In this document: positions 24,477-37,730 of the stretch, piece by piece
Position numbering within the stretch: position 1 is the first letter of the stretch
Layout: the number at the start of each line of letters is the position of its first letter
Source: Phreatobacter sp.
Lineage (GTDB): Bacteria > Pseudomonadota > Alphaproteobacteria > Rhizobiales > Phreatobacteraceae
Length of the DNA: 37,730 nt
Reading direction: 5' to 3'
Assembly: GCA_019749835.1 (NCBI GenBank)
Contig: JAIEPJ010000305.1
Location: 1-37,730, forward strand
Notes under the pieces: model-generated
The model's input: only the letters and a program-made list of their open reading frames with translations
What the model was told of the DNA's origin: nothing
Databases searched by the model: none
Translations under genes and position numbers: made by a program

Positions 24477-25745
24477 ATGCGCAGGACAATTCTCGCCGTA
24501 TTCGCGGCCTTGGCCATCTGGATGCCAGGCGCGGCCTTCGCCCAGGGCGGCGGCACCATCAAGATCGGCATTCTGGTCGCGCTGGAAGGCGCCTTTGCGG
24601 CCGGCGGCGCCGATGGCGTCCGCAACGTCGAACTGGCGCTCAGGCAGATCAACAGCACCATCGGCGGCCGGCGGATCGAGACCGTCGTAGCCCCCACCGA
24701 TACCCGTCCGGACACGACGATCCGGATGGCGCGCAAGCTTATCGAGCAGGATCGCGTCGACATTATCATCGGGCCCCTGTCCGGGTCCGAGGGCATCGCC
24801 ATGCGCGATTTCGCCAAGACGATCCCCGGCAATGTCGTGATCAACGGTATTTCCGGCGCCCTTGAAACGACCTGGGTCGATCCGGCACCGAACTTTTACC
24901 GCTTCAATCTCGATGGCGCCCAGTGGGGCTTCGGCCTCGGCAGCTATGTGGTGAAGCAGAAGAACTGGCGCCGCGTGGTGAGCATCGCCGGCGACTATTC
25001 GTTCGGCTACACCAACTTCATGGGCTTTGCGATCGACTTCTGCAGGGCCGGCGGCGACATCGTCCAGCGCTTCTGGCATCCCCTCGGCCAGGCCGATTTC
25101 GGCGCCATCATCGCCCAGCTTCCCGACAACGTCGACGCGATCTATCTCGGTCTTGGCGGCACCGATGCCATCAATTTCCTCAACCAGTACCAGCAGGCCG
25201 GCGAGCGCACGCGCCTCATCGGCGGGACGATCATGGCCGACCAGACGGTGCTGACCGCCCGCGGTCGCGCCAAGGACGTGCTGCGGGGAACGCCGACCTC
25301 CGGCCCCTTCGCCGTCGACAACCCGGATGCCGCCTGGCAGGCCTATGTGAAGCTCTATCAGGACAGCTTCCCGGCCAACCAGCGCTTCCCGACGCCCTCG
25401 CTCTTCGGCCTCGGCTACTACATCGCCACCCTCGCCGCGATCCGGGGTCTGGAAGCGGTCGGCGGTGACCTCAGCAACGGCCAGGCGCGCTTCAAGGAGG
25501 CGCTGAACAAGATCCAGCTCGACAGCCCGATCGGCCGGATCACCCTCAACGAGAACCGCCAGGCCACCGGCACTGTCTTCATCAACGAGGTCGTCGAAGG
25601 CACCGACGGCAACCTGACGAACAAGATGGTCGCCAGGACGGACAACGTCACCCAGACGCTCGGCATGACCGCCGAACAGTACCGGGCGATCGGACTGCCT
25701 TCCCGCAACGTCGTCGACTGCGCCCGGTTGCGCGCCGGCGGCTGA
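24477..25745 (+). CDS. Branched-chain-type ABC transporter binding protein (Peripla_BP_6)
   Basis: The 422-residue protein has a signal peptide (MRRTILAVFAALAIWMPGA, cleavage after AFA) and the two-lobed leucine/amide-binding layout: IKIGILVALEGAFAAGGADG, VELALRQINSTIGGRRIE, DTTIRMARKLIEQDRVDIIIGPLSGSEG, SIAGDYSFGYTNFMGF, LGGTDAINFLNQYQQAG and SLFGLGYYIATLAAIRGLEAVGG. Relatives import amino acids, amides, urea or aromatic acids. ATG 24477 has an excellent GGGAGGA site. It is followed by an intrinsic terminator, so it can be made in excess of the rest of the importer encoded from 28018. Confidence 0.94.
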   Translation: MRRTILAVFAALAIWMPGAAFAQGGGTIKIGILVALEGAFAAGGADGVRNVELALRQINSTIGGRRIETVVAPTDTRPDTTIRMARKLIEQDRVDIIIGPLSGSEGIAMRDFAKTIPGNVVINGISGALETTWVDPAPNFYRFNLDGAQWGFGLGSYVVKQKNWRRVVSIAGDYSFGYTNFMGFAIDFCRAGGDIVQRFWHPLGQADFGAIIAQLPDNVDAIYLGLGGTDAINFLNQYQQAGERTRLIGGTIMADQTVLTARGRAKDVLRGTPTSGPFAVDNPDAAWQAYVKLYQDSFPANQRFPTPSLFGLGYYIATLAAIRGLEAVGGDLSNGQARFKEALNKIQLDSPIGRITLNENRQATGTVFINEVVEGTDGNLTNKMVARTDNVTQTLGMTAEQYRAIGLPSRNVVDCARLRAGG

Positions 25746-25766: not shown

Positions 25767-25794
25767 AGAGGCCGGCGCCATGCCGGCCTCTTTC
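25767..25794 (+). terminator. Intrinsic terminator after the binding-protein gene
   Basis: A perfect 10-bp stem, AGAGGCCGGC (25767-25776) with GCCGGCCTCT (25782-25791), encloses a five-base loop and is followed by TTC, giving TTT at 25791-25793. It begins 21 bases after the binding-protein stop. The short U-run makes it an imperfect terminator, which could attenuate rather than end transcription into the next gene. The loop contains the in-frame ATG 25780, which argues against that codon as a start. Confidence 0.7.
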
Positions 25795-25851
25795 GACCAG
25801 GCTCCTCTTGCGGATCGCCCCGGCACTATCCCGGGCGACAAGGCGGACCGG

Positions 25852-26907
25852 ATGACGTTGATCGGCTATCTCACGCGAACGCAGTTCGCGGATGGCGCCA
25901 TCGACGATGCCCTGCCCGAAGAGGCTTCGCGGCTCGGCAAGGCGCTGGTGCTCATCGACACCGAACCCGGTGCGGCGGAGGCGCTCGCCCGCGTCAGGGA
26001 TGCCTTGCCGCATCTGCGGCTGGCGACGACCACCGTCAGTGCCGACGCGCCGCTGCGTGCGGAGATCGCCCGCGTGGCGGAGGAACTGAAGCGCGCCGAT
26101 GCGGCGACCATCATCGCCATCGGCGGCGCCGGGGCCATCGGTCAGGCGCGCCTTGCCGCCGATGCGGCTATCCGGCGAGGCCGCCTCTGCGCCGTCATCG
26201 CGGTGCCGGTCAGCCTGTTCGACCTCGGCCTCGGCAGGCAGGTCCGACCGCGCGACGGAGAGCCGGTATCCTGTCCGCGGCCTGACCGGGTGATCGCCGA
26301 TCCGACGGCACTGGCCCATCTTCCGCCACGTCGGCTCGCCGCGGCGGGCATGGAAATTCTGGTCCATGCCATCGAGGCCTATGCCAGCCCGACCTTCAAC
26401 CCGCCGGCCGACGGCCTGGCCCTGGAAGCGGTCCGCCGCCTCGCCCGCTGGCTGCCTGTGGCCGTAGCGGCGCCTGACAATGCCGAGGCACGGCGCGAGG
26501 CGCTGGCCGGCGCCCTGACGGCCGGGCTCGCCATGGAAAAGAGCATCGGCGGCGTCGATGCGCTCGCCCACCCCCTCGAGGACGCATTGGTGGGACGGGC
26601 CATGCCGGGCGAGTTGCACGCGCCCGTCCTGGCGGCCTTCGTCGGTTTCAATGCCCGCGCCGTCGGCGACCGCTATGGCGCCCTTTCGGACACCATGGGC
26701 CAGGGCGGGGCGGTGACGGGGCTGGATATCCAGCTCGCCGCCTTCGCCCGTGCGCTCGGCCTGCCAGCGGCCTTGCGGGAAACGGCCACCGACCCCAATC
26801 GTTTCGCCCAGGTCGCGGTCCGGGCGGCGGATGATCCCGCCGCTTTCGCAAATCCGCGGCTCCTCACCCCGGGGGACTGCGAGCGCATCCTGGAGGCGGC
26901 ATGGTGA
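25852..26907 (+). CDS. Iron-containing alcohol dehydrogenase fold protein (maleylacetate reductase-like), altered metal site
   Basis: The 351-residue protein follows the maleylacetate reductase / group III alcohol dehydrogenase layout: start TRTQFADGAIDDALPEEASRLG, ALVLIDTEPG, a Rossmann region with TIIAIGGAGAIGQARLAAD, VIAVPVSLFD, PDRVIADPTALAHLP, then the helical domain AAGMEILVHAIEAYASPTFNP. Maleylacetate reductases make 3-oxoadipate in hydroxyquinol degradation. The usual metal ligands are changed: Asp in DxLxH is Glu (MEILVH), the first His of VHALAHPL is Asp (VDALAHPL), and the His of the PHAETH-like motif is Gly (MPGELH). The nucleotide loop also lacks the third Gly of GGGS. It may use another metal, or be non-catalytic. 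I chose ATG 25852 because 25780 lies in a terminator loop and would add untypical residues. Confidence 0.75.
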   Translation: MTLIGYLTRTQFADGAIDDALPEEASRLGKALVLIDTEPGAAEALARVRDALPHLRLATTTVSADAPLRAEIARVAEELKRADAATIIAIGGAGAIGQARLAADAAIRRGRLCAVIAVPVSLFDLGLGRQVRPRDGEPVSCPRPDRVIADPTALAHLPPRRLAAAGMEILVHAIEAYASPTFNPPADGLALEAVRRLARWLPVAVAAPDNAEARREALAGALTAGLAMEKSIGGVDALAHPLEDALVGRAMPGELHAPVLAAFVGFNARAVGDRYGALSDTMGQGGAVTGLDIQLAAFARALGLPAALRETATDPNRFAQVAVRAADDPAAFANPRLLTPGDCERILEAAW

Positions 26908-27064: not shown

Positions 27065-27901
27065 GTGAGTGTTGCTCACGCTGTCGCGCACGGCGTGTTT
27101 GGTCGCGTCTGCCTCTACGTGATGGACAAGGCCATGGCGCCGCATGCGCATCGGGAAGGACATCTCATCTTCCACATCCATGGCCCGCCGGCCGAGGTCG
27201 TGGTGGATGGCCGAGCCTATCCGGTGTCCGCCGGCCGAGCCGTCGCGGTCAGTCCCTGGCAGCCGCATTTCTATCGGCCCCTGGTCTCGCGCGAAAACGT
27301 CCTCGCCCTGGTGCTCTATATCCGTCCTGGCTGGTTCGTCCATGCGAGCTGTCAGGCCTCGGAAATCCTGCGTTTCGGGCGCGTCGGAGTCGAAGTCTCC
27401 GACAGGCTGGGGCGCCTGGTGGCCGATACCAGCCAATTGCTCTCCGCCCGGCGCGGCAACGACGGCGACTTCGAGGATCGCCTGAGTGCCCTCACCCAGG
27501 CCTGCTTCGACCAGACCTGGCAATGGACGGCGGAGGGCCAGCACTTCATCGGCCAGGAACGGCCCTTGCGTGACTTCCGCATCCGCCGCGCACTCCGGCT
27601 TCTCGACGCCACGCTCGGCGAACCGGTCGATCTTGCCCGTCTCTCACGCGCCGCCGGCTTGTCGCGCCCCCACTTCTTCAAACTGTTCCGCGAACAGATA
27701 GGCCTTCCCCCCACCATCTACGTCAATGCGCTGCGGATGGAACGGGCGATCGAGCGTCTGGCGCTCGGCAAGGAGACGGTGGCCGATATCGGCCTCGACC
27801 TCGGCTTCTCGACGCCGGCCAGTTTCTCCCGGTTCTTCATCGCCAACGGGGTCGTCCCACCGAGCACCTATCGGCGCAGTGTCATGACCCATGCACAGTG
27901 A
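27065..27901 (+). CDS. AraC-family transcriptional regulator
   Basis: The 278-residue regulator has an N-terminal cupin sensor domain (about 15-110: MAPHAHREGHLIFHIHG, VVVDGRAYPVSAGRAVAVSP, WQPHFYRPL) and a C-terminal double HTH (about 175-272: IRRALRLLDATLGEPVDLARLSRAAGLSR, HFFKLFREQIGLPPTIYVNALR, then ETVADIGLDLGFSTPASFSRFF). The start is GTG 27065 with GGGAGGAG 5-11 bases upstream; an in-frame TTG at 27062 is less likely. It lies between the binding protein and the permease operon and is the natural candidate for sensing the imported compound and activating 24477 and 28018 onwards. Confidence 0.92.
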   Translation: MSVAHAVAHGVFGRVCLYVMDKAMAPHAHREGHLIFHIHGPPAEVVVDGRAYPVSAGRAVAVSPWQPHFYRPLVSRENVLALVLYIRPGWFVHASCQASEILRFGRVGVEVSDRLGRLVADTSQLLSARRGNDGDFEDRLSALTQACFDQTWQWTAEGQHFIGQERPLRDFRIRRALRLLDATLGEPVDLARLSRAAGLSRPHFFKLFREQIGLPPTIYVNALRMERAIERLALGKETVADIGLDLGFSTPASFSRFFIANGVVPPSTYRRSVMTHAQ

Positions 27902-28017
27902 CGCCGGTGACACCCGCGAAAGAAAAGACCCTCGGTAAAGCCGACCCTCGCAAGTCGGCCTAGCCTTGATGCGGCTGGCGACGACGGTGCCGCGAGCCTT
28001 CATGTGTCGACGGTGTG

Positions 28018-29034
28018 ATGGAAAAATTCGCCAAGAACCATCCTCTCTGGACTTTGGTGATCGCGCTCCTGGTGGCGGGCTTCCTCTGGCTCGTCTTCGC
28101 CCCATGGCCCCCGGAGCTTGAGGCGGCGGTCGGACGCAAGCGGATATTCCTCAATGCCCTGCTCGGCGGCATCACCCTCGGCGCGCTCTATTTCCTCGTC
28201 GCCTCGGGCTTCACACTGATCTTCGGGCTGATGCGGACCGTCAACCTGGCCCATGGCTCGCTGTTCCTGCTCGGCGGCTATATCGGCTACGAGGTCGCCA
28301 CCCAGTCGGGATCGTGGCTGCTCGCCTTTCCCGTCGTCTTCGTCGTGGTCGGCTTCCTCGGCCTCGTCATGCAGCGCTTCATCTTCTCGCACATGGAAGG
28401 CGAGGAACTGCGCCAGACCCTGGTCAGCATCGGCCTGTCGATCGTGCTGGCGGATCTCATGCTCTGGTTCTGGGGTGGGCAATCCTACACGACGCTCGCG
28501 CCGGCCCTGCTGCGCGGTCCGGTCGAACTGCCCATCATCTCCTCGATCAATCCGACCAGCGGCGAAGCCATCTACATCCGCTATCCCTCGGTGCGCATCT
28601 GGATCCTCGTCGCGGCCATCGTTATCGGCCTGGCCATGTGGCTGGTGCTGAACCGCACCTCGCTCGGCATGGTGATCCGTGCCGGTGTCGACGATCGTGA
28701 GATGCTCGCTGCCTCTGGCGTGCGGATCAAGCTGGTCTTCCTGGCCGTCTTCGTCTTCGGGGCCGGCCTCGCCGGCATGGCCGGGATCATCGGCGGCACC
28801 TTCCAGTCGCTGTCGCCAGGCGAAGACACGCGGTTTCTCCTCGCCAGCCTGGTGGTGGTGATCGTCGGCGGCATGGGCTCGATCGCCGGTGCCGCGATCG
28901 GTGCGATCATCATCGGCGTGACCGAACAGATGGGTCTGGTCTATGCGCCGACCTATTCGGTGGTTTTCACCTTCCTGATCATGGCGGCGGTCCTGGCCTT
29001 CCGGCCGCAGGGCCTTCTGGGCGCGGGACGGTGA
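28018..29034 (+). CDS. Branched-chain-type ABC transporter permease (LivH family)
   Basis: The 338-residue permease has an extra N-terminal membrane helix (WTLVIALLVAGFLWLVF) before the standard LivH core, which starts NALLGGITLGALYFLVASGFTLIFGLMRTVNLAHGSLFLLGGYIGY. The coupling loop region NRTSLGMVIRAGVDDREMLAASGVRI and the last helices (LASLVVVIVGGMGSIAGAAIG, then FRPQGLLG) are typical. ATG 28018 and GTG 28015 are both possible starts, neither with a strong ribosome site. The next gene follows after 3 bases. It is the first gene of a tight operon that runs to the window end. Confidence 0.93.
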   Translation: MEKFAKNHPLWTLVIALLVAGFLWLVFAPWPPELEAAVGRKRIFLNALLGGITLGALYFLVASGFTLIFGLMRTVNLAHGSLFLLGGYIGYEVATQSGSWLLAFPVVFVVVGFLGLVMQRFIFSHMEGEELRQTLVSIGLSIVLADLMLWFWGGQSYTTLAPALLRGPVELPIISSINPTSGEAIYIRYPSVRIWILVAAIVIGLAMWLVLNRTSLGMVIRAGVDDREMLAASGVRIKLVFLAVFVFGAGLAGMAGIIGGTFQSLSPGEDTRFLLASLVVVIVGGMGSIAGAAIGAIIIGVTEQMGLVYAPTYSVVFTFLIMAAVLAFRPQGLLGAGR

Positions 29035-29037
29035 ACG

Positions 29038-30114
29038 ATGTCGCTGGCTGATCAGGCCCCGCCCCGGGCAAGCAGGGGCGCCACCAAGACCGCCGGGCCG
29101 ACATCATGGATCGAGCGGATCCCGGCGGCCTGGTGGGCCGCTGCCCTGGTGCTCCTCGCGATGCCCCTCGTCGCCAACAATTTCTGGCTGTTCCAGGTGA
29201 TGGGCTGGACCTTCATCCTGGGCATGATCGCGGTCAGCCTGACCTTCCTCGCCGGCTATGGCGGCATGGTGAGCCTGCTGCAGATGAGCATCGCCGGCCT
29301 CGCCGGCTACATGGTGGCCATTCTCGGTCCCTCGGGAACGACGTCCATCAGCCTCGGCCTGTCCTGGTGGATCGTGCTGCCGGCAGCCTTCCTGATCGCG
29401 GCGATCTTCGCCACCCTGTCGGGTGCTCTCGCGGTCAGGACCGAGGGCATCTACACGATCATGATCACCCTCGCGATCGCCGCGGCGTTCTTCTATTTCA
29501 CCCGGCAGAACTACACGATCTTCAACGGCTATTCCGGCTTCAACCTGGTCCTGCCGCCGCGGCTTTTCGGCGTCGACTGGCGCGATCCCGTTGCATTCTA
29601 CTACCTGTGCCTGGGATGTGCCGCGCTCTGCTACGGCGCGGTGGTCTATGTCTCCCGGTCGCCCTTCGGCCTCGCCCTGCAGGGCGTGCGGGACAATCCC
29701 CGGCGCATGGCGGCCCTCGGCTTCAACGTTACCGCCCACCGCGTCGCCGCCCATGCCTTCGCCAGCATCTTCGCCTCCATGGGCGGGATACTGCTGGTCT
29801 GGCAGAACGCCCAGATCGCGCCGGGAACCATCGGCATATCCTCGGCCATCGACGTGCTGGTCGTCGCCGTCGTCGGCGGCATGCGACGCCCGCTCGGCGC
29901 CTTCGTCGGCGCCTTCATCTACGTCATTCTCCAGACCTTCTCGCCCGACGTCCTCGGGGCCTTCGGCTTCTCGGCGGAACGCTTCAAGCTGATCATCGGC
30001 ATCGGCTTTCTGGCCGTCGTGCTGTTCTCGCCCGACGGCGTGATGGGCCTCTGGGACCGCTGGCGCGCCCGGGCCGCCCGACGGGTCGATCCCCTGACGG
30101 GGCAGCCGCGATGA
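29038..30114 (+). CDS. Branched-chain-type ABC transporter permease (LivM family)
   Basis: The 358-residue permease has the LivM pattern: a hydrophobic start (AAWWAAALVLLAMPLVAN), GWTFILGMIAVSLTFLAGYGGMVSLLQMSIAGLAGY, the helix with GALAVRTEGIYTIMITLAIAAAFFYF, the coupling loop PFGLALQGVRDNPRRMAALGFNVTAHRVAAHAFA, VVAVVGGMRRPLGAFVGAFIY, and FSPDGVMGLWDRWRARAARR at the C-terminus. It overlaps livG by four bases (ATGA at 30111-30114). It forms the channel with the preceding LivH-type protein. Confidence 0.94.
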   Translation: MSLADQAPPRASRGATKTAGPTSWIERIPAAWWAAALVLLAMPLVANNFWLFQVMGWTFILGMIAVSLTFLAGYGGMVSLLQMSIAGLAGYMVAILGPSGTTSISLGLSWWIVLPAAFLIAAIFATLSGALAVRTEGIYTIMITLAIAAAFFYFTRQNYTIFNGYSGFNLVLPPRLFGVDWRDPVAFYYLCLGCAALCYGAVVYVSRSPFGLALQGVRDNPRRMAALGFNVTAHRVAAHAFASIFASMGGILLVWQNAQIAPGTIGISSAIDVLVVAVVGGMRRPLGAFVGAFIYVILQTFSPDVLGAFGFSAERFKLIIGIGFLAVVLFSPDGVMGLWDRWRARAARRVDPLTGQPR

Positions 30115-30899
30115 GCCTCTCGACCGTCAACGAGCGTCCCGGCCAGATGAACAGCGGCAATGCGCTGGAGCTGCGCGGCATCACCAAGATGTTCGGTGCC
30201 CTCGCCGCCATCGCCGACGTCACGATTTCGGTGCGTCCGGGCGAACGGCGCGCCGTGCTGGGGTCCAACGGTGCGGGAAAGACCACGTTGTTCAACTGCA
30301 TCACCGGCGACTTTCCGGCGACGTCAGGCATCATCCGGTTCTTCGGCGAGGACGTGACGGCCTTCCCGCCCTATGAGCGCATCCGCCGCGGCCTGCGCCG
30401 CACCTACCAGATCTCCTCGCTCTTCGCCGGCCTGACCGTCATCGACAATGTCTACCTGGCCTGCCGCGGCGTCTCGCGGAACCGCTATTCGCTTCTGCGG
30501 CCGCGCAGCGACGACGCCCTCGTCCATGCCGCCGAGATGCTGGTGGAAGCGGTCCATCTCACGGCGGTCAAGGACCGCCTCGTCGGCGAGCTCGCCTATG
30601 GCCAACAGCGGCAGCTCGAGATCGCCCTGGCGATGTCGGGCGCGCCCCGCTTCATCCTGTTCGACGAGCCGGCGGCCGGCCTGTCGCCGACAGAGCGCCG
30701 CGACCTGGTCACCATCCTGACCTCCCTGCCCGCCCATATCGGCTACATCGTCATCGAGCACGACATGGACGTGGCGCTTCGCGTCGTCGAGAGCGTGACG
30801 ATGATGCACAACGGACGGGTCTTCAAGGAGGGCAAGCCGAGCGAGATCGAGGACGATCCGGAGGTCCAGGAACTCTATCTGGGAGGCGGGCATGGCTGA
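30111..30899 (+). CDS. Branched-chain-type ABC transporter ATP-binding protein (LivG family)
   Basis: The 262-residue ATPase shows the LivG order: LRGITKMFGALAAIADVTISV, Walker A GSNGAGKTTLFN, the Q-loop block RRTYQISSLFAGLTVIDNV, signature LAYGQQRQLEIALAM, Walker B FILFDEPAAGLSPTERRDL and switch histidine VIEHDMDVAL. The usual LSYG signature serine is Ala. It overlaps the following fusion gene by 8 bases. It powers the importer as a heterodimer with the LivF domain of the next protein. Confidence 0.95.
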   Translation: MSLSTVNERPGQMNSGNALELRGITKMFGALAAIADVTISVRPGERRAVLGSNGAGKTTLFNCITGDFPATSGIIRFFGEDVTAFPPYERIRRGLRRTYQISSLFAGLTVIDNVYLACRGVSRNRYSLLRPRSDDALVHAAEMLVEAVHLTAVKDRLVGELAYGQQRQLEIALAMSGAPRFILFDEPAAGLSPTERRDLVTILTSLPAHIGYIVIEHDMDVALRVVESVTMMHNGRVFKEGKPSEIEDDPEVQELYLGGGHG

Positions 30900-33117
30900 G
30901 CGCTTCCCCGTTCCCGCAAAGGCCGGAATTCCGGTCCTGCAACTGCAGGGCGTCAATGTTTTCTACGGCCGCAGCCATGCTGTACAGGGCGTCGACCTGA
31001 CGCTTCACTCGGGCGTGCTCTCCGTGGTCGGCCGCAACGGCATGGGCAAGACCACCATGTGCAAGGCCATCATGGGCCTTGTGCCGATGTCATCGGGCTC
31101 GATCCGGTTCATGGGCGAGGAGATTGCCGGCCAGGCGCCGGCAGATATCGCGAGGCTCGGCATCGGCTACGTGCCGCAGGGGCGCCGGCTGTGGCGCTCG
31201 CTGACGGTGCACGAGCACCTGCGGCTGATGTCCAAGCCGAAGGGGCGGTGGACGCCGGAACGCATCTACGAGGTATTCCCGCGGCTGGCGGAACGGCGCA
31301 ACAATGGCGGCGCCCAGCTGTCCGGCGGCGAGCAGCAGATGCTGGCCATCAGCCGCGCCCTGCTGATGAATCCGCGCCTGTTGATCATGGACGAGCCGAC
31401 CGAGGGACTTGCCCCCGTCATCGTCGCCCATGTCGAGGAGACGCTGGTCCGTCTCGCCGCCGAGGGCGATGTCTCCATCCTCGTCATCGAGCAGAATATC
31501 GGTGTCGCCACCCAGATGTCCGATCCGGTGGCGATCATGGTCAACGGGCGGATCAACCGCGTCATCGCCTCGGCGACGCTGGCCGCGGACCGCGACCTGC
31601 AGCAGCGGCTGCTCGGTGTCGGGCGCCACGGCCATGACGATGCCGATGCGGGAGCCCAGGATGCGGGGGCGGGCGCGACGCCGGTTGCCGTGCCGGCACC
31701 GGTCAACCAGGGACCGATCCGGGTCTTCATGGCCAATCCGGTCATCCCGACACGCTGGTCGAAGGATGTGCCGGCTGCCCAGATCGAGGCCGCGGCCCGC
31801 ACCGTCTCGCGCCCGACGCTCGCCACCATCGACGGCCGGGTGATCGGTGACACATCGGCCCTGGCCGCCCGTGGACCGAGCGAGCCCCATGTCATCATCG
31901 CGGGGACGCTCGACACCAAGGGCGACGAGTTGCGATACATCCGCGACATCATCAAGGCGGCCGGGCTGCGCACCCGGCTGGTGGATGTCTCGACCCAGGG
32001 GCGCAACCACGGGGCCGATGTGTCGGCGCAGGAGGTGGCGCTCGCGTCACCCCGCGCGCTTCCCGGTCTCGCATCAGGTGATCGCGGTGCCGCCGTCGCG
32101 GCAATGACGGAGGCCTTCGCCACCTGGATCGCCGCGCAGCAGGACGTGCTCGGCCTGATCTCGGCCGGCGGCTCCGGCGGCACGGCCATCGCGACCGCCG
32201 CCATGCAGATGCTGCCCATCGGCGTGCCCAAGATCATGGTCTCGACCATGGCCGCCGGCAATGTGGCGCAATATGTCGGCTCCACCGACATCACCATGAT
32301 GCATTCGGTCACCGACGTTCAGGGGCTGAACCGCATCTCGCGCGCCGTGCTCGGCAATGCGGCCCATGCCATGGCCGCCATGGCCAAGGCCCATCTGGCG
32401 ACCCCCCGGCCGGATCCGTTGCGGGAAAGGCCACTCGTCGGGCTGACGATGTTCGGGGTCACCACGCCCTGCGTCCAGCAGGTCGCCAAGCTCATCGCGG
32501 CCGACTGGGAGCCGCTCGTGTTCCACGCCACCGGCGTCGGCGGGCGGTCGATGGAAAAGCTGGTGGACTCACGGCTGCTGCAGGGCGTCATCGACGTCTC
32601 GACGACCGAAGTCTGCGACATGCTGATAGGGGGCATCCTGCCGGCGACCGAGGACCGTTTCGGCGCGGTTATCCGCACCAGGCTTCCTTATGTCGGATCG
32701 GTCGGCGCCCTCGACATGGTCAATTTCGCCGCGCCCGATACGGTTCCGCAGCACTATCGCGGCCGCAACCTCTACCCCCACAATCCGCAGGTGACGCTGA
32801 TGCGCACCACGGCCGACGAAAACACCCGCATCGGGCGCTGGATCGGCGAAAGGCTCAATCTGATGGAGGGGCCGGTGCGGTTCCTCATTCCCGAAGGCGG
32901 GGTCTCGTCTCTCGATGCGCCGGGCAAGCCGTTCTTCGATCCGGAAGCCGATGCCGCACTCTTCCAGGCCCTCACCGAGACTGTCCGCATCACGGCCAAC
33001 CGGCAGCTGATCCGGTTGCCGCACCATATCAACGATCCCGCCTTCGCACAGGCTCTGGTCCGCGAGTTCCTCGCGCTTCACCAGGGCCGCCGCGGCGCCG
33101 CGCGCAAAAGGACCTGA
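30892..33117 (+). CDS. LivF-type ABC ATPase fused to a Tm-1-like (UPF0261) ATP-binding domain
   Basis: A single 741-residue protein. Residues about 15-242 are a complete LivF ATPase: Walker A GRNGMGKT (47-54), QGRRLWRSLTV, LSGGEQQMLAISRAL, Walker B LLIMDEPTEGLAP, VIEQN. Residues about 243-330 are an Ala/Asp-rich linker with a conserved-looking patch FMANPVIPTRWSKDVPAAQI. From about 332 the protein is a UPF0261/Tm-1-like domain: VIIAGTLDTKGDELRYIRDII, VDVSTQGRNHGADVS, GLISAGGSGGTAIATAAMQMLPIGVPKIMVST, YVGSTDITMMHSVTD, GLTMFGVTTPCVQ, VFHATGVGGRSMEKL, DVSTTEVCDMLIGG and ANRQLIRLPHHINDPAFAQA. That domain has a known ATP-binding fold, with no settled reaction. It is followed after 3 bases by the TIM-barrel partner, and probably senses or modifies the imported substrate. 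Confidence 0.92.
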   Translation: MAERFPVPAKAGIPVLQLQGVNVFYGRSHAVQGVDLTLHSGVLSVVGRNGMGKTTMCKAIMGLVPMSSGSIRFMGEEIAGQAPADIARLGIGYVPQGRRLWRSLTVHEHLRLMSKPKGRWTPERIYEVFPRLAERRNNGGAQLSGGEQQMLAISRALLMNPRLLIMDEPTEGLAPVIVAHVEETLVRLAAEGDVSILVIEQNIGVATQMSDPVAIMVNGRINRVIASATLAADRDLQQRLLGVGRHGHDDADAGAQDAGAGATPVAVPAPVNQGPIRVFMANPVIPTRWSKDVPAAQIEAAARTVSRPTLATIDGRVIGDTSALAARGPSEPHVIIAGTLDTKGDELRYIRDIIKAAGLRTRLVDVSTQGRNHGADVSAQEVALASPRALPGLASGDRGAAVAAMTEAFATWIAAQQDVLGLISAGGSGGTAIATAAMQMLPIGVPKIMVSTMAAGNVAQYVGSTDITMMHSVTDVQGLNRISRAVLGNAAHAMAAMAKAHLATPRPDPLRERPLVGLTMFGVTTPCVQQVAKLIAADWEPLVFHATGVGGRSMEKLVDSRLLQGVIDVSTTEVCDMLIGGILPATEDRFGAVIRTRLPYVGSVGALDMVNFAAPDTVPQHYRGRNLYPHNPQVTLMRTTADENTRIGRWIGERLNLMEGPVRFLIPEGGVSSLDAPGKPFFDPEADAALFQALTETVRITANRQLIRLPHHINDPAFAQALVREFLALHQGRRGAARKRT

Positions 33118-33120
33118 GAC

Positions 33121-33951
33121 ATGCCGCGCTTCTCCAAGTCCGAGTTGCTCGATCGCTACAGGGGCATGGTCGCCCGCGGCGAACCGATCGTCGGCGGCGG
33201 CGCCGGAACCGGCCTGTCTGCCAAATGCGAAGAGGCCGGCGGCATCGACCTGATCGTCATCTACAATTCCGGTCGCTTCCGCATGGCCGGCCGCGGGTCG
33301 CTGTCGGGGCTGATGCCCTATGGCGATGCCAACCAGATCGTCATGGAAATGGCCGGCGAGGTCCTGCCGGTGGTCACCAAGACGCCGGTCATCGCCGGCG
33401 TCTGCGCCACCGACCCGTTCCGCCAGATGGACGTGTTCCTCGACGAGGTGAAGCGCATCGGCTTTGCCGGCGTGCAGAATTTCCCCACCGTCGGGCTGAT
33501 CGACGGCGTCTTCCGGGCCAATCTCGAAGAGACGGGCATGGGCTACGGCCTTGAGGTCGATATGGTCGCCCTCGCCAACGCCAAGGACCTGCTGACGACG
33601 CCCTATGTCTTTTCGCAGGACGACGCCCGGCGGATGGCGGGTGTCGGAGCCGACATCATCGTCTGTCACCTCGGCCTGACCACAGGCGGCTCGATCGGTG
33701 CGGAAACCGCGCTGAAGCTGCAGGACTGCCCCGCCATCGTCGACGCCTGGGCAGCCGCGGCCCTGGCCGTGAAGCCGGACGCCGTGATCCTGGTTCATGG
33801 CGGCCCGGTCGCCACACCCGCCGATGCCGATTTCATTCTCAAGAACACCCGCCACTGCCACGGCTTCTACGGAGCCTCCTCCATGGAGCGCCTCCCGGTC
33901 GAAGTGGCGATCCGCGATCAAACCCGCGCCTTCAAGGCGATCAGCCGCTGA
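33121..33951 (+). CDS. TIM-barrel protein of the Tm-1 C-terminal / phosphoenolpyruvate hydrolase-like family
   Basis: The 276-residue protein has the family's opening [50 protein letters not shown], followed by [79 protein letters not shown] and [19 protein letters not shown], ending in [13 protein letters not shown]. This is a complete (beta-alpha)8 barrel. In tomato Tm-1 and many microbial proteins this domain follows the UPF0261 domain in one chain; here the two are adjacent genes separated by 3 bases. The reaction is not known; the family resembles phosphoenolpyruvate/isocitrate-lyase-type barrels. Confidence 0.88.
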
Positions 33952-34005
33952 GGCGGCGCACCCAACACGACGAGCCCACCAGAGAAACGTCGGGAGGAAC
34001 ATGAC

Positions 34006-36621
34006 ATGACCGGACAGCTCATCGGAGCCCTGATCCTCTGGCTGATCGTCGCCGTGATCGCCATCGCGATCATCGTCTATCTCGTCAACTGGCTCTACCG
34101 GCGCTCGTCCAAGGAGGTATCGTTCGTCCGGACCGGCCTCTTCGGCGAAAAGGTGGTGATCAATGGCGGCGCCTTCGTGCTGCCGATCATCCACGACGTC
34201 ACCCCGGTCAACATGAACGTGCTGCAGATGGCGGTGACGCGCAGCAAGGACACCGCACTGATCACCCGCGACCGCATGCGGGTCGACATCGATGCCGAAT
34301 TCTACGTGCGCGTCAGGCCGGACAAGCCATCCGTGGCCATCGCCGCCGCCACGCTCGGCCGTCGGACGCTGCAGCCTGATCAATTGAACACCCTGCTCTC
34401 CGGCAAGTTCATCTCGTCGCTGCGCACCGTTGCCGCCGCCATGTCGATGGAGGAGATGCACGAGCAGCGCGGGATCTATGTCCAGCGCGTCAAGGAGGCC
34501 GCCGCCGAGGCCCTCAACCAGAACGGCCTCGTCCTGGAATCGGTGGCGATCACCGACCTCGACCAGACCGACCTTCAGTATTTCAATCCGTCCAACCGCT
34601 TCGACGCCGAGGGTCTGACGCGCATCATCGAGGAGATCGAGGAGAAGCGGAAACTGCGCAACGACATCGAGCAGGAATCGATGATCAAGATCCGCAGCCG
34701 CAATCTGGAGGCCGAGCGCCAGGCGCTCGACATCGAGCGGGAGAGCGAGTCGGCGCGGCTGGAACAGCAGCGCGAGATCGAGATCCGGCGTGCCGTGCAA
34801 CGCACCGAGATCGCCCGTGAGCGGGCCGCCCGCGACACCGAGGCCGAACAGGCCCAGATCGTCTCCCGCGAGGAGATCGAAAAGGCCAAGATCGCCAATG
34901 AGCGGGCAATCAGCGAGGCGCGCATCGCCTCCGACCGCGACATCCGCCAGCAGGAAATCGCCAGGACGAAGGCGGTCGAGAGCGCTGAAATCGCCGCGCG
35001 CGAAGAGATCGAAACCGCCAGGATCGCCAATGATCAGGCGATCCAGGCCGCCCGCATCGCCTCGGACCGCGAGATCCGTCAGAAGGAGATCGAGCGCACG
35101 AGATCGCTTGAGCAGGCCGAGATCGCCGCACGGGAGGCGGTCGAGCGCTCGCGGATCGCCCAGGAGGCACAGGTGAGTGCCGAGCGCATCGATCGCGAGA
35201 AGGAGATCAAGAATCTCGAGATCGCCCGCAACAAGGCTCTCGATGAAGCCGAGATCGCGGCCCGCGAGGCCGTCGAGAAGGCCCGGATCGCCCAGGACAT
35301 CGCGCTCACCGCCGAGCGCATCGCCTCCGACGAGGGCAAGCGCAAGCTGGAAATTGCGCGGAACCGCACGGTCGAGGAGGCCGAGATCGCCGCCCGCGAG
35401 GCGACGGAAGCAGCCCGCATCGCCCAGGAGAAGGCAACCGCTGCCGAACGCATCGCCTCCGCGCTCGCCACCCGGCAGTTGGAGATCAAGAGCACCGAGC
35501 AGCTCGAGGCCGCCGAGATCAAGCGGCGCGATGCGGTCGAACGGCAGCGCATCGCCGCCGAGCTGAAGATCGAGGAGGAGCGCATCGCCTCGTCGCAGAC
35601 CCGCGAGGTGTTGCAGATCGAGCAGAAGAAGGCGGTGGAGGTGGCCGAGGAGAACCGCGCCATCGTCATGGCCGCCAAACGCGCCGAGCGCTCGGAGGCC
35701 GACAAGACCCTGCGCCAGACCGAGATCATCGCCAAGCAGGAGGTCGAAAAGACCGATGTCGCACGCGAACAGGCGCTGGAAGCAGCGCGACTGGAGCGCC
35801 GCCGCGCCATCGAGCAACTGGAGGTCGCCCGATCCCAGGCGCTGCAGGAATCGCAGATCGCTTCCAACGAAGAGGTGGAGCGCGCCCGCATCGCCTCCGA
35901 CCGCGGCCTGGACGAGGCTCGCGTCGGTCGGCAACGCGACCTTCGCCGGCTCGAGATCGAGCGGGAGCGCGACGTGGAGAACGCCGCGATGGACAAGGCG
36001 ATCACGCTCTACGCCAAGTCTCTCGAGGAAAGCGCCGCAGCCGTGAAGGCCGAACTGGCCAAGGCCAAGGCGGTCGAGGCGGCCGAGCTGGTTCAGACGG
36101 TCAAGGAGAGCGAGACCGCCAAGCGGCGCAAGACCGTCGAGGTGATCAATGCCGAGAAGGCGGCCGAGGAGGTGCGCATCGCCGCCGAGGCCGACAAGAT
36201 CCGCAAGGCCATCGACGCCGAGGCCCAGAAGCTTCTCTACGAGGCCGAGAACGTACTCACCGACGGCGCCCGCTACGGGCTCTTCCGTCGCCGCCTGCTC
36301 GATCGGATCGAGGGCATCGTGCGCGAAAGCGTCAAGCCCATGGAGAAGATCGAGGGCATCCGCATTCTCCATGTCGACGGCCTGCAGGGCACAGGCGGTG
36401 GCGGGGGCGGATCGTCGCGCACGCCGACTGACGAGGTGATCGATTCGGCCCTGCGCTACCGCGTCCAGGCGCCGCTCATCGACCAGGTGCTGAAAGAGAT
36501 CGGCATCGAGGGCGGCAATCTTGCCAAGATGGGAGGGCTGATGCGCGAGGCCTCCGACATGCAGCGCGTCGCCAAGGACGCTCAGCCGCCCAAGCCCAAA
36601 GATGACGGCGAGAAGAAGTAA
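34006..36621 (+). CDS. Giant flotillin-like SPFH protein with hendecad coiled coil
   Basis: The 871-residue protein starts with one membrane helix (about 5-30, LIGALILWLIVAVIAIAIIVYLVNW), then an SPFH/band-7 domain (about 35-205: VSFVRTGLFGEKVVINGGAFVLP, NVLQMAVTRSKDTALITRDRM, LNQNGLVLESVAITDLDQT, YFNPSNRFDAEG). From about 210 to 760 it is continuous charged coiled coil. Residues 283-546 are six tandem 44-residue units, each four 11-residue hendecads beginning Ala/Glu-x-Ile (for example AEIAAREAVEK). A Gly-rich linker (about 791-799) leads to a helical C-terminus ending DDGEKK. Ordinary flotillins/YqiK are about 430-700 residues. GGGAGGA precedes ATG 34006. Flotillins scaffold membrane microdomains; here it sits between importer and oxidoreductase genes. 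Confidence 0.92.
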   Translation: MTGQLIGALILWLIVAVIAIAIIVYLVNWLYRRSSKEVSFVRTGLFGEKVVINGGAFVLPIIHDVTPVNMNVLQMAVTRSKDTALITRDRMRVDIDAEFYVRVRPDKPSVAIAAATLGRRTLQPDQLNTLLSGKFISSLRTVAAAMSMEEMHEQRGIYVQRVKEAAAEALNQNGLVLESVAITDLDQTDLQYFNPSNRFDAEGLTRIIEEIEEKRKLRNDIEQESMIKIRSRNLEAERQALDIERESESARLEQQREIEIRRAVQRTEIARERAARDTEAEQAQIVSREEIEKAKIANERAISEARIASDRDIRQQEIARTKAVESAEIAAREEIETARIANDQAIQAARIASDREIRQKEIERTRSLEQAEIAAREAVERSRIAQEAQVSAERIDREKEIKNLEIARNKALDEAEIAAREAVEKARIAQDIALTAERIASDEGKRKLEIARNRTVEEAEIAAREATEAARIAQEKATAAERIASALATRQLEIKSTEQLEAAEIKRRDAVERQRIAAELKIEEERIASSQTREVLQIEQKKAVEVAEENRAIVMAAKRAERSEADKTLRQTEIIAKQEVEKTDVAREQALEAARLERRRAIEQLEVARSQALQESQIASNEEVERARIASDRGLDEARVGRQRDLRRLEIERERDVENAAMDKAITLYAKSLEESAAAVKAELAKAKAVEAAELVQTVKESETAKRRKTVEVINAEKAAEEVRIAAEADKIRKAIDAEAQKLLYEAENVLTDGARYGLFRRRLLDRIEGIVRESVKPMEKIEGIRILHVDGLQGTGGGGGGSSRTPTDEVIDSALRYRVQAPLIDQVLKEIGIEGGNLAKMGGLMREASDMQRVAKDAQPPKPKDDGEKK
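34852..35643 (+). repeat. Six tandem 132-base units encoding 44-residue coiled-coil repeats
   Basis: Inside the flotillin-like gene, residues 283-546 fall into six units of exactly 44 residues, starting at 34852, 34984, 35116, 35248, 35380 and 35512. Units 2-5 begin AEIAARE, unit 6 begins AEIKRRD and unit 1 AQIVSRE. Each unit splits into four 11-residue blocks with Ile at position 3. The DNA copies have diverged, so the amplification is old, but the phase is strictly kept. Confidence 0.85.
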
Positions 36622-36632
36622 GGCAGACAATC

Positions 36633-37070
36633 ATGGCCCGCGTCTATGTCTCCAGTGTCGTCAATGCGCCCGCGGCCCGGGTCTGGGCCCGGGTGCGCGA
36701 TTTCAACGGTCTGCCCAACTGGGTTCCCGCCGTGGCGGAGAGCCGGATCGAGAACGGTGAGCCCGCCGACAAGGTGGGCTGTGTCAGGGCCTTCTCCCTG
36801 CGCAACGGCGACAAGCTGCGCGAGAAGCTGCTCGGCCTCTCCGACTTCGACATGTTCTGCACCTATTCGATCCTCGACAGCCCCATGCCGCTCACGGACT
36901 ACGTGGCGACCCTGCGGCTGACGCCGATCACTGATCAGGATCGCACCTTCGTCGAATGGTCCGCCGAGTTCGACTGCGCCCCGGAGCGGGAGCAGGAACT
37001 CGTTTCGAACATCGGCACCAACGTCTTCCAGGCGGGTTTCGACTCGCTCAAGCGCGCCTTCGGAGGCTGA
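36633..37070 (+). CDS. SRPBCC family protein (CoxG-like), first copy
   Basis: The 145-residue protein is a single START/Bet-v-1-like hydrophobic-pocket domain: SSVVNAPAARVWARVRDFNGLPNWVPAVAESRIENGEPADKVGC, then an antiparallel sheet (RAFSLRNGDKLREKLLGLSD, CTYSILDSPMPLTDYVATL, TFVEWSAEF) and the long C-terminal helix ELVSNIGTNVFQAGFDSLKRAF. Such proteins bind lipophilic ligands; CoxG-type members help dock or mature molybdenum hydroxylases at the membrane. It begins 11 bases after the flotillin gene and is about half identical by eye to the next protein, so the pair arose by duplication. Confidence 0.88.
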   Translation: MARVYVSSVVNAPAARVWARVRDFNGLPNWVPAVAESRIENGEPADKVGCVRAFSLRNGDKLREKLLGLSDFDMFCTYSILDSPMPLTDYVATLRLTPITDQDRTFVEWSAEFDCAPEREQELVSNIGTNVFQAGFDSLKRAFGG

Positions 37071-37071
37071 T

Positions 37072-37524
37072 GTGCCCAAGGTCGTCCGCAGCACCATCAT
37101 CAACGCGCCGGTCGATGCCCTCTGGGCCGTCCTGCGCGACTTCAACGGTCACGACCAGTATCACCCCATCGTCGCCGCCAGCGCCATCGAACGCGGCCAT
37201 CCCGCCGACAGGATCGGCTGCGTCCGCAGGTTCACCCTGCAGGACGGCAGCGAGCTGCGTGAACAGCTCCTGTCCCTGTCGGATCTGGAAATGACCTACA
37301 GCTACTGCCTGCTCGACACGCCGATCCCGCTGTTCAACTACGTCGCCCATATCCGGCTTTTGCCGGTGACCGACGGCAACCGCAGCTTCTGGCACTGGGA
37401 AAGCCGCTTCACCACGCCCCCGGGCCGCGAGGCGGAACTGGCCGAGACGGTCGGCAACGACGTGTATTCGGCCGGCATGGAAGCTGTCCGCCACCTCCCC
37501 GAACTCCAAGGTGGAGCGCCCTGA
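37072..37524 (+). CDS. SRPBCC family protein (CoxG-like), second copy
   Basis: The 150-residue protein has the same fold and motif order as its neighbour: STIINAPVDALWAVLRDFNGHDQYHPIVAASAIERGHPADRIGC, REQLLSLSDLEMTYSYCLLDTPIPLFNYVAHI, FWHWESRFTTPPGREAEL and a C-terminal helix. The start is GTG 37072, one base after the previous stop codon, with the GGAGG of the previous gene's end (37062-37066) as ribosome site. Having two copies suggests a heterodimer or two related ligands. Its stop is two bases from the next start. Confidence 0.88.
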   Translation: MPKVVRSTIINAPVDALWAVLRDFNGHDQYHPIVAASAIERGHPADRIGCVRRFTLQDGSELREQLLSLSDLEMTYSYCLLDTPIPLFNYVAHIRLLPVTDGNRSFWHWESRFTTPPGREAELAETVGNDVYSAGMEAVRHLPELQGGAP

Positions 37525-37526
37525 CC

Positions 37527-37730
37527 ATGGCGATCGAGTTCCGCACCGCCACGACCTTCTCGGACGCCGCCGGCCTCATCGCAGGCGACCGCACCGCCCG
37601 GCTGCTGTCAGGCGGAACGCTGATCATGCGCGACATCAACGAGGGCCGGCTCACCGACGGGCTCATCCTGCGGCTCGTCGATCCCGCCTATCGGCAGATC
37701 ACGCTGTCCGGCAGGGTCGAACTGGGGGCG
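37527..37730 (+). CDS. FAD-binding subunit of a molybdenum hydroxylase (xanthine/CO dehydrogenase medium subunit family), 5' part
   Basis: The visible 68 residues match the N-terminal FAD-binding domain of CoxM/XdhB-type subunits: FRTATTFSDAAGLIAGD, then the FAD-diphosphate loop RLLSGGTLIMRDINEGRLTDG (usual form AGGT-DL-P-M), and LILRLVDPAYRQITLSG. The protein continues beyond the window. This subunit passes electrons from the molybdenum and Fe-S subunits to an acceptor. It starts two bases after the second SRPBCC gene, as in cox-type operons where CoxG-like proteins accompany the hydroxylase. Confidence 0.8.
   Translation, partial: MAIEFRTATTFSDAAGLIAGDRTARLLSGGTLIMRDINEGRLTDGLILRLVDPAYRQITLSGRVELGA

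Follow-up and report, generated by a model that had tools for sequence, protein, structure and literature searches.

The gene cluster analysed here can be compared with several described systems. Encapsulin cargo enzymes carry cargo-loading peptides, and the tomato member of the Tm-1 family blocks a virus. Plant Tm-1-like proteins and the bacterial UPF0261/TBST pairs combine a UPF0261 half with a TIM-barrel half, and the available part of PMC5028733 gives no bacterial function for such pairs. Human flotillin builds a cage 32 nm wide with a 186-residue helical wall (available part of PMC11260169), and in Oligotropha carboxidovorans, whose CO dehydrogenase is encoded by coxMSLDEFG, the dispensable CoxG has been proposed to bring the enzyme to the membrane (available part of PMC4240915). 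The cluster lies at the end of contig JAIEPJ010000305.1 (C312) in the draft genome of Phreatobacter sp. (GCA_019749835.1), the complete 37,730 nucleotides of which form the window analysed here. The operon in question encodes a Liv-type importer carrying half of a Tm-1 pair, a long flotillin, two SRPBCC proteins and a molybdenum (Mo) hydroxylase with a tailed Mo subunit. With a probability of roughly one half, these proteins form a membrane-anchored uptake-and-oxidation assembly, in which the tail tethers the Mo-hydroxylase to the importer/flotillin block.

The operon runs from position 28015 to the contig end and comprises nine plus-strand genes spaced -8 to 54 bases apart, in agreement with the first-pass annotation apart from the first start codon, here taken as GTG at 28015 instead of the alternative ATG at 28018. 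That first gene encodes a LivH-type permease (28015..29034) and is followed by a LivM-type permease (29038..30114), a LivG-type ATPase (30111..30899), a 741-residue fusion of a LivF-type ATPase with UPF0261, the Tm-1 N-half (LivF~UPF0261, 30892..33117), a PEP_hydrolase-like TIM barrel equivalent to the Tm-1 C-half (33121..33951), an 871-residue flotillin (34006..36621), SRPBCC proteins 1 (36633..37070) and 2 (37072..37524), and the start of CoxM, the FAD subunit of the Mo-hydroxylase (37527..37730). The 68-residue CoxM fragment has no Pfam match of its own; it was assigned because contig C130 of the same genome, read on the reverse strand, opens with 21 bases that exactly match the window end, and because the continuation of the frame on C130 is 95% identical to the CoxM of the relative L043, which matches FAD_binding_5 and CO_deh_flav_C. 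The series on C130 consists of the rest of CoxM, CoxS, a tailed CoxLa, CoxLb, CoxD, CoxE, an Amidohydro_2 protein, a lactonase-like MBL protein and the start of an SGL-isochorismatase fusion gene, and the whole series is unbroken in the complete genome G008 and the draft genome G002. Compared with coxMSLDEFG, the FAD, 2Fe-2S and Mo subunits, CoxD (AAA) and CoxE (VWA) are common to both and stand in the same order, but here the Mo subunit is split and bears an AMRGFG motif, from which the CO-type active-site loop of CO dehydrogenase differs. Moreover, no CoxF was seen, the SRPBCC proteins lack a CoxG match, and the importer, Tm-1 and flotillin genes are added.

The proposed tether is the C-terminal tail of CoxLa, the first Mo-subunit piece. 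In the flotillin-bearing loci in which the block is followed by the Mo-hydroxylase (type A), CoxLa extends 67-165 residues past the end point of its untailed homologues, with a linker that is rich in proline (26%) and alanine (17%) and variable between loci, and with a conserved stretch of 11 residues at the very end. The ending reads RFSSVFGTRRR in 59 of 92 distinct tails and RRR in all 92, and is absent from all 38 untailed proteins. In a census of 130 loci, four of them dropped as duplicates, the tail was present in 86/86 distinct loci with a flotillin in view and in 0/33 without one, the latter counted where at least 8 kb upstream could be seen. There was no mixed case; three tailed and three untailed loci are cut upstream, and one is broken.

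Both kinds of loci occur within the Rhizobiaceae, a label that stands for our reading of the family of G312, holding Shinella- and Sinorhizobium-like loci. There, 247 genomes yielded 46 CoxLb loci, 45 of which were fetched: ten have both flotillin and tail, two are tailed with the contig cut upstream, and 33 are without flotillin. CoxLa ends 83-89 residues past the AxRGFG motif in 32 of these 33, the frame being broken in the remaining one. The flotillin-less loci retain CoxD (31), CoxE (29), the amidohydrolase (31) and SRPBCC 1 (25; some of the misses are slice ends), so the tail tracks neither CoxD nor the amidohydrolase, while UPF0261, the barrel, the flotillin and SRPBCC 2 were found as best match in none of them. 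The reading frame of CoxLa is broken in Sinorhizobium BG8 (L107 / L153).

Conservation of the operon was counted in the best 80 of 434 relatives of the fusion, drawn from one genome per species across 84,980 species; these loci were chosen by similarity and are not an unbiased sample, and each count includes only loci whose stretch is long enough to show the gene. The block was kept throughout (LivH 76/76, LivM 77/77, LivG 79/79, barrel 78/78, flotillin 77/77), as were SRPBCC 1, SRPBCC 2, CoxM and CoxS (72/72 each), CoxLa and CoxLb (71/71 each) and CoxD (70/70). CoxE was present in 63/70, the seven misses being taken as loci whose stretch ends there. Since the close relatives keep both order and strand, the arrangement is not due to chance, and every one of them with room shows flotillin and importer together, the co-occurrence on which the first-pass annotation had staked its proposal. 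The operon is located on plasmids as well as on chromosomes, and its carriers include many bacteria of soils and plants.

The link between fusion and flotillin was also seen in two broader samples, in which only the best first-look candidates per genome were scored, with cut-offs of 1e-50 and 1e-40. The class sample (210 genomes) held 25 UPF0261 places, 11 of them in long frames. A flotillin lies within 1 kb on the same strand in ten of these 11, the eleventh (G267) being without a flotillin and, in the surrounding 12 kb that were fetched, without a LivF match, and none was found within 3 kb of the 14 short-frame places (Fisher p 3e-6, long vs short). In the phylum sample (299 genomes), flotillin adjoins 9/9 long-frame places and 0/19 others. 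Taken together, with G000 and G088 occurring in both samples, all 17 distinct fused long-frame places are flotillin-adjoined, compared to 0/33 short-frame places, a few of them close to contig ends; for G361, G408, G447 and G463 a fusion was deduced from frame length.

A second operon type carries the block without the Mo-hydroxylase. In the 22 type-B loci (L106, G088, G138, G164, G181, G187, G243, G312, G373 and L187-L199), the frame that comes after importer, fusion, flotillin and SRPBCC 1 encodes SRPBCC 2 and is 482-588 residues long; a zinc-binding dehydrogenase lies behind the SRPBCC part in 8/8 frames scanned with Pfam. The barrel stands between fusion and flotillin in 19 of the 22 and upstream in G187, and was not matched in the stretch fetched for G312 and G373. 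The first-pass annotation had treated importer, Tm-1 module, flotillin, SRPBCC pair and Mo-hydroxylase as one operon, which holds for this locus and its conserved order, but the Mo-hydroxylase is not an obligatory member. In L133, importer, UPF0261, barrel and SRPBCC 1 are encoded by separate genes and no flotillin lies among them (the view extends about 2 kb further), which looks like a state before fusion, and in L200 a flotillin is present without the block.

The importer has two permeases (both BPD_transp_2 in Pfam), two ATPases (both ABC_tran) and a Peripla_BP_6 periplasmic binding protein (24477..25745, plus strand; the frame is open from 24384, with the likely start and signal peptide at 24477), which bears out the assignment as Liv/Urt-type, although no protein reached a urea or branched-chain equivalog cut-off. 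The fusion comprises the LivF-type ATPase at residues ~1-240 and UPF0261 at ~330-730, the latter with tomato Tm-1 chains as best solved matches (3wry), and the adjoining barrel matches Pfam PEP_hydrolase (TBST) and a single solved structure, 2p10. The Tm-1 module proposed in the first-pass annotation is thus present as a pair of neighbouring halves but is not a separate module, since its UPF0261 half is fused to the importer ATPase. In this it differs from the plant Tm-1-like protein, in which the barrel takes the place of the ABC ATPase as fusion partner. The closest named relatives of the fused ATPase are Phreatobacter metagenome-assembled genomes. A role in anti-phage defence was considered and set aside: flotillin and barrel match no PADLOC model, and the six models matched by the fusion (best mad3, E 1.7e-20) all fall within the LivF part, at residues 28-218, and are read as a sign of general ATPase similarity.

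The flotillin contains SPFH/Band_7 and Flot C-terminal domains (Pfam Band_7 and Flot) and a strongly hydrophobic N-terminal segment, and its coil of ~500 residues, delimited by eye, follows an 11-residue period with a 44-residue super-repeat (identity 26% at shift 11 and 35% at shift 44). Domain pair, hydrophobic segment and long non-heptad coil are shared with the flotillins of cages and of bacterial functional membrane microdomains; here, in contrast, the flotillin is dedicated to an importer operon and its coil is far longer than the human wall. With the FloT equivalog NF058507 it scored 24.6 bits against a cut-off of 700. Measured from a fixed N-terminal motif, the flotillins of loci with a Mo-hydroxylase in view span 832-1142 residues (89 rows), and the remaining 24 rows span 523-941, three of them exceeding 800 and the others reaching 720; those three probably correspond to L044, L045 and L051, type-A loci that are cut. 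In a plasmid collection, 229 Escherichia plasmid records match the first 398 residues of this flotillin; among the records listed, identity is ~45% and several carry a flotillin annotation.

From gene order, fusion, family assignments, the tail and its co-occurrence with the block, all observed at gene level, we infer interactions, a cage and a chemistry as follows. The Liv-type importer would bring in a small compound, on which, or on a derivative of which, the UPF0261 domain of the second ATPase and its partner barrel would probably act at the inner face of the transporter. The dedicated long-coil flotillin might, by analogy with solved flotillins, form a cage or platform on the inner membrane, and the two SRPBCC pocket proteins could hand the compound, or a lipophilic electron carrier, to the redox enzyme. 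The low-complexity, probably disordered CoxLa tail with its conserved end peptide would tether the Mo-hydroxylase to the block, most likely to the flotillin, and hydrolases of the lactonase and amidase families would then open the oxidised product. Tail and flotillin may do the job of bringing enzyme to membrane here. The arrangement would resemble that of encapsulin cargo, in which a flexible linker and a short conserved C-terminal peptide also sit on the enzyme, with flotillin as the proposed dock in this case; no encapsulin was seen, no search having been aimed at one. That the flotillin organises the complex, as supposed in the first-pass annotation, is favoured indirectly by the tail of the Mo subunit. 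A more far-reaching version, which we regard as tentative and rather doubtful, is that the flotillin forms a dedicated metabolic compartment at the inner membrane, that the C-terminal peptide loads the Mo-hydroxylase onto or into the cage beside the Tm-1-bearing importer, so that uptake, activation and oxidation proceed without release, and that the block is modular, serving at least two oxidoreductases.

Several observations weigh against the tethered assembly. A tree built from 68 CoxLb rows places the 32 tailed ones in a single clade (support 96), so the association of tail and flotillin represents one gain, kept since then and carried across families (Yoonia stands among the Rhizobiaceae rows), and not many independent gains; a single joint inheritance, with no shared function, might explain why tail and block go together. 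The tail goes along with four parts simultaneously (importer fusion, barrel, flotillin and SRPBCC 2), which does not single out a partner, and across 89 loci tail length shows no link to flotillin length (rho -0.18, p 0.10). No type-B locus was found to carry the terminal peptide, and the likeness of an N-terminal FxGWGGxR-like stretch in type-B amidohydrolases, missing from several of them, to the type-A tail end is loose and was noted after the fact. Finally, the tail end, being basic and aromatic, might itself bind lipid.

This last point leads to a reading which we consider unlikely, namely that the tail is a membrane-binding peptide that brings the Mo-hydroxylase to the respiratory chain, as proposed for CoxG in Oligotropha (where CoxG is dispensable), and that the flotillin only alters the lipid surroundings. 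The RFSSVFGTRRR-like ending with its three invariant arginines would suit such a role, and neither SRPBCC protein has a hydrophobic stretch of anchor strength. A lipid-binding tail should, however, be useful without flotillin, yet it is missing from all 33 flotillin-less homologues, and binding to lipid would not require a pattern as specific as the conserved FSS..G. Docking on LivF~UPF0261 or on SRPBCC 2, with the importer handing the compound directly to the enzyme, appears improbable to us, even though in the Rhizobiaceae the fusion, barrel and SRPBCC 2 come and go with flotillin and tail; the untailed loci lack fusion, barrel, flotillin and SRPBCC 2 together, so the data do not separate these partners, and nothing singles out the flotillin, which counts against such docking only as the long, most scaffold-like member. 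Equally improbable is an ordinary catabolic operon in which the flotillin is a travelling general membrane organiser and the tail a partnerless solubility spacer. The known families of the parts and the single origin of the tail would fit this, but in a spacer the last 11 residues would not stay constant as the linker drifts, and two operon types with different enzymes both retain the flotillin next to the fusion.

If the tethered assembly is real, it would provide a flotillin with a defined client, docking signal and pathway, so that a single short peptide would suffice to test the long-debated role of bacterial flotillins. The Tm-1/UPF0261 family, for which we found no bacterial role stated, gains a physical link to an importer. 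The part families are known, while their conserved combination, the ATPase fusion and the tail were not found described in open-licence PMC papers; that search for the cluster covered titles and the starts of abstracts, which does not prove absence from print.

A type-A-specific flotillin patch was looked for as docking site and only scattered positions emerged. A scan for a second cargo with the same peptide (six frames of 27 sequences, frames of at least 60 residues) matched CoxLa in 11 and otherwise gave loose matches only, in the type-B amidohydrolase of G138 and G164 and in one 175-residue frame of G181; because the variant ending in Yoonia (L103) escaped the search expression, the scan was not exhaustive. 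The type-B amidohydrolases of L187, L189-L195, G138 and G164 carry a short Gly/Ser-rich N-terminal extension before the catalytic domain, with an (F/Y)xxWGGxR-like stretch in most; it is absent in L198, L199, G187 and G243.

The SRPBCC pair had been called CoxG-like in the first-pass annotation, a label that was not upheld. Both proteins match PF10604 (Polyketide_cyc2), and at a limit of E = 10 the matches of the pair comprise only PF10604, PF03364 and one weak unrelated model; the CoxG family model, which we take to be PF06240, was not among them at this limit, at which the HMMER filters drop most weak matches. Members of the CoxG family have a hydrophobic C-terminal anchor, whereas the maximum 19-residue hydropathy of SRPBCC 1 and 2 is 0.74 and 1.02, respectively, below membrane-anchor strength. 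Both operon types link SRPBCC 2 to a redox enzyme, by the C-terminal zinc-type dehydrogenase in type B and by its neighbour in type A, its gene ending in this operon 2 bases before that of the FAD subunit. These positions would also suit a pair that carries quinone instead of substrate, as a mycobacterial CoxG reportedly does. We regard this as a possible but doubtful variant, compatible with the tethered assembly; an SRPBCC gene also occurs in the importer/Tm-1 locus L133, in which our query set matched no redox gene.

The Mo-hydroxylase belongs to the xanthine oxidase family, with FAD, 2Fe-2S and Mo subunits recognised on C130 by similarity to the L043 proteins, which were identified by Pfam, PDB and NCBIfam. 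As anticipated in the first-pass annotation, CoxS- and CoxL-type subunits lie within the next 10 kb, the Mo subunit in two pieces and with CoxD and CoxE in addition, but the XdhC/CoxF maturation factor also expected was not seen in the operons of G002 and G008, where the predicted genes were read and not each scanned with Pfam. Both Mo pieces have nicotinate dehydrogenase (3hrd) and 4-hydroxybenzoyl-CoA reductase (1rm6) as best solved matches. The Mo subunit of 3hrd is likewise split in two; its chain A, of 425 residues, is matched to residue 416 and thus has no tail, unlike CoxLa here. We know of no flotillin or importer block with either enzyme. CO dehydrogenase as the enzyme is unsupported by these structures and by the model scores, the pieces reaching 152.5 and 112.1 bits against 991 for TIGR02416 (CO dehydrogenase large subunit), an unsplit model with which a split member would score low too. 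The same split Mo-hydroxylase with an SRPBCC gene lies on a haloarchaeal plasmid (Salinigranum, L104:11328-14987), with no flotillin matched.

The hydrolases downstream, of lactonase and amidase families, agree with the expectation of ring-opening enzymes, and a gluconolactonase-like domain among them was assigned by Pfam. None reached the NCBIfam cut-offs (given as bits scored/cut-off) for L-fuconolactonase (98/400), 4-pyridoxolactonase (51/325), the PRK11440 hydrolase (73/195), RutB (61/378) or biuret amidohydrolase (57/370). MBL and SGL-isochorismatase genes follow the amidohydrolase in most listed tailed loci with room, and had no match in listed untailed loci, in which the room after the amidohydrolase is often < 2 kb. 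In L095:9584-11182 (minus strand), the SMP-30/gluconolactonase-like and isochorismatase parts form a 533-residue fusion, located downstream in type-A operons.

Two further Tm-1 arrangements were observed. Beside the type-B operon of G138, L111:17731-19518 (minus strand) joins PEP_hydrolase, the Tm-1 C-half, with a Fis-type HTH and a part resembling sigma-54 activators; the product is apparently a regulator that uses the same barrel. In L102, Tm-1 pairs lie beside sugar-type importers and genes for an SRPBCC protein, Gfo/Idh/MocA and a cupin, with no annotated flotillin. Within the window, a 1353-residue open frame on the minus strand (32569-36630), opposite the flotillin and its neighbours, was interpreted as an antisense frame arising in high-GC coding DNA. 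Upstream of the operon, the AraC-family regulator (27065..27901, plus strand) and the binding protein named in the first-pass annotation were both recovered, and between them lies a gene for an Fe-ADH-like protein (25780..26907, plus strand), which only some of the relatives carry.

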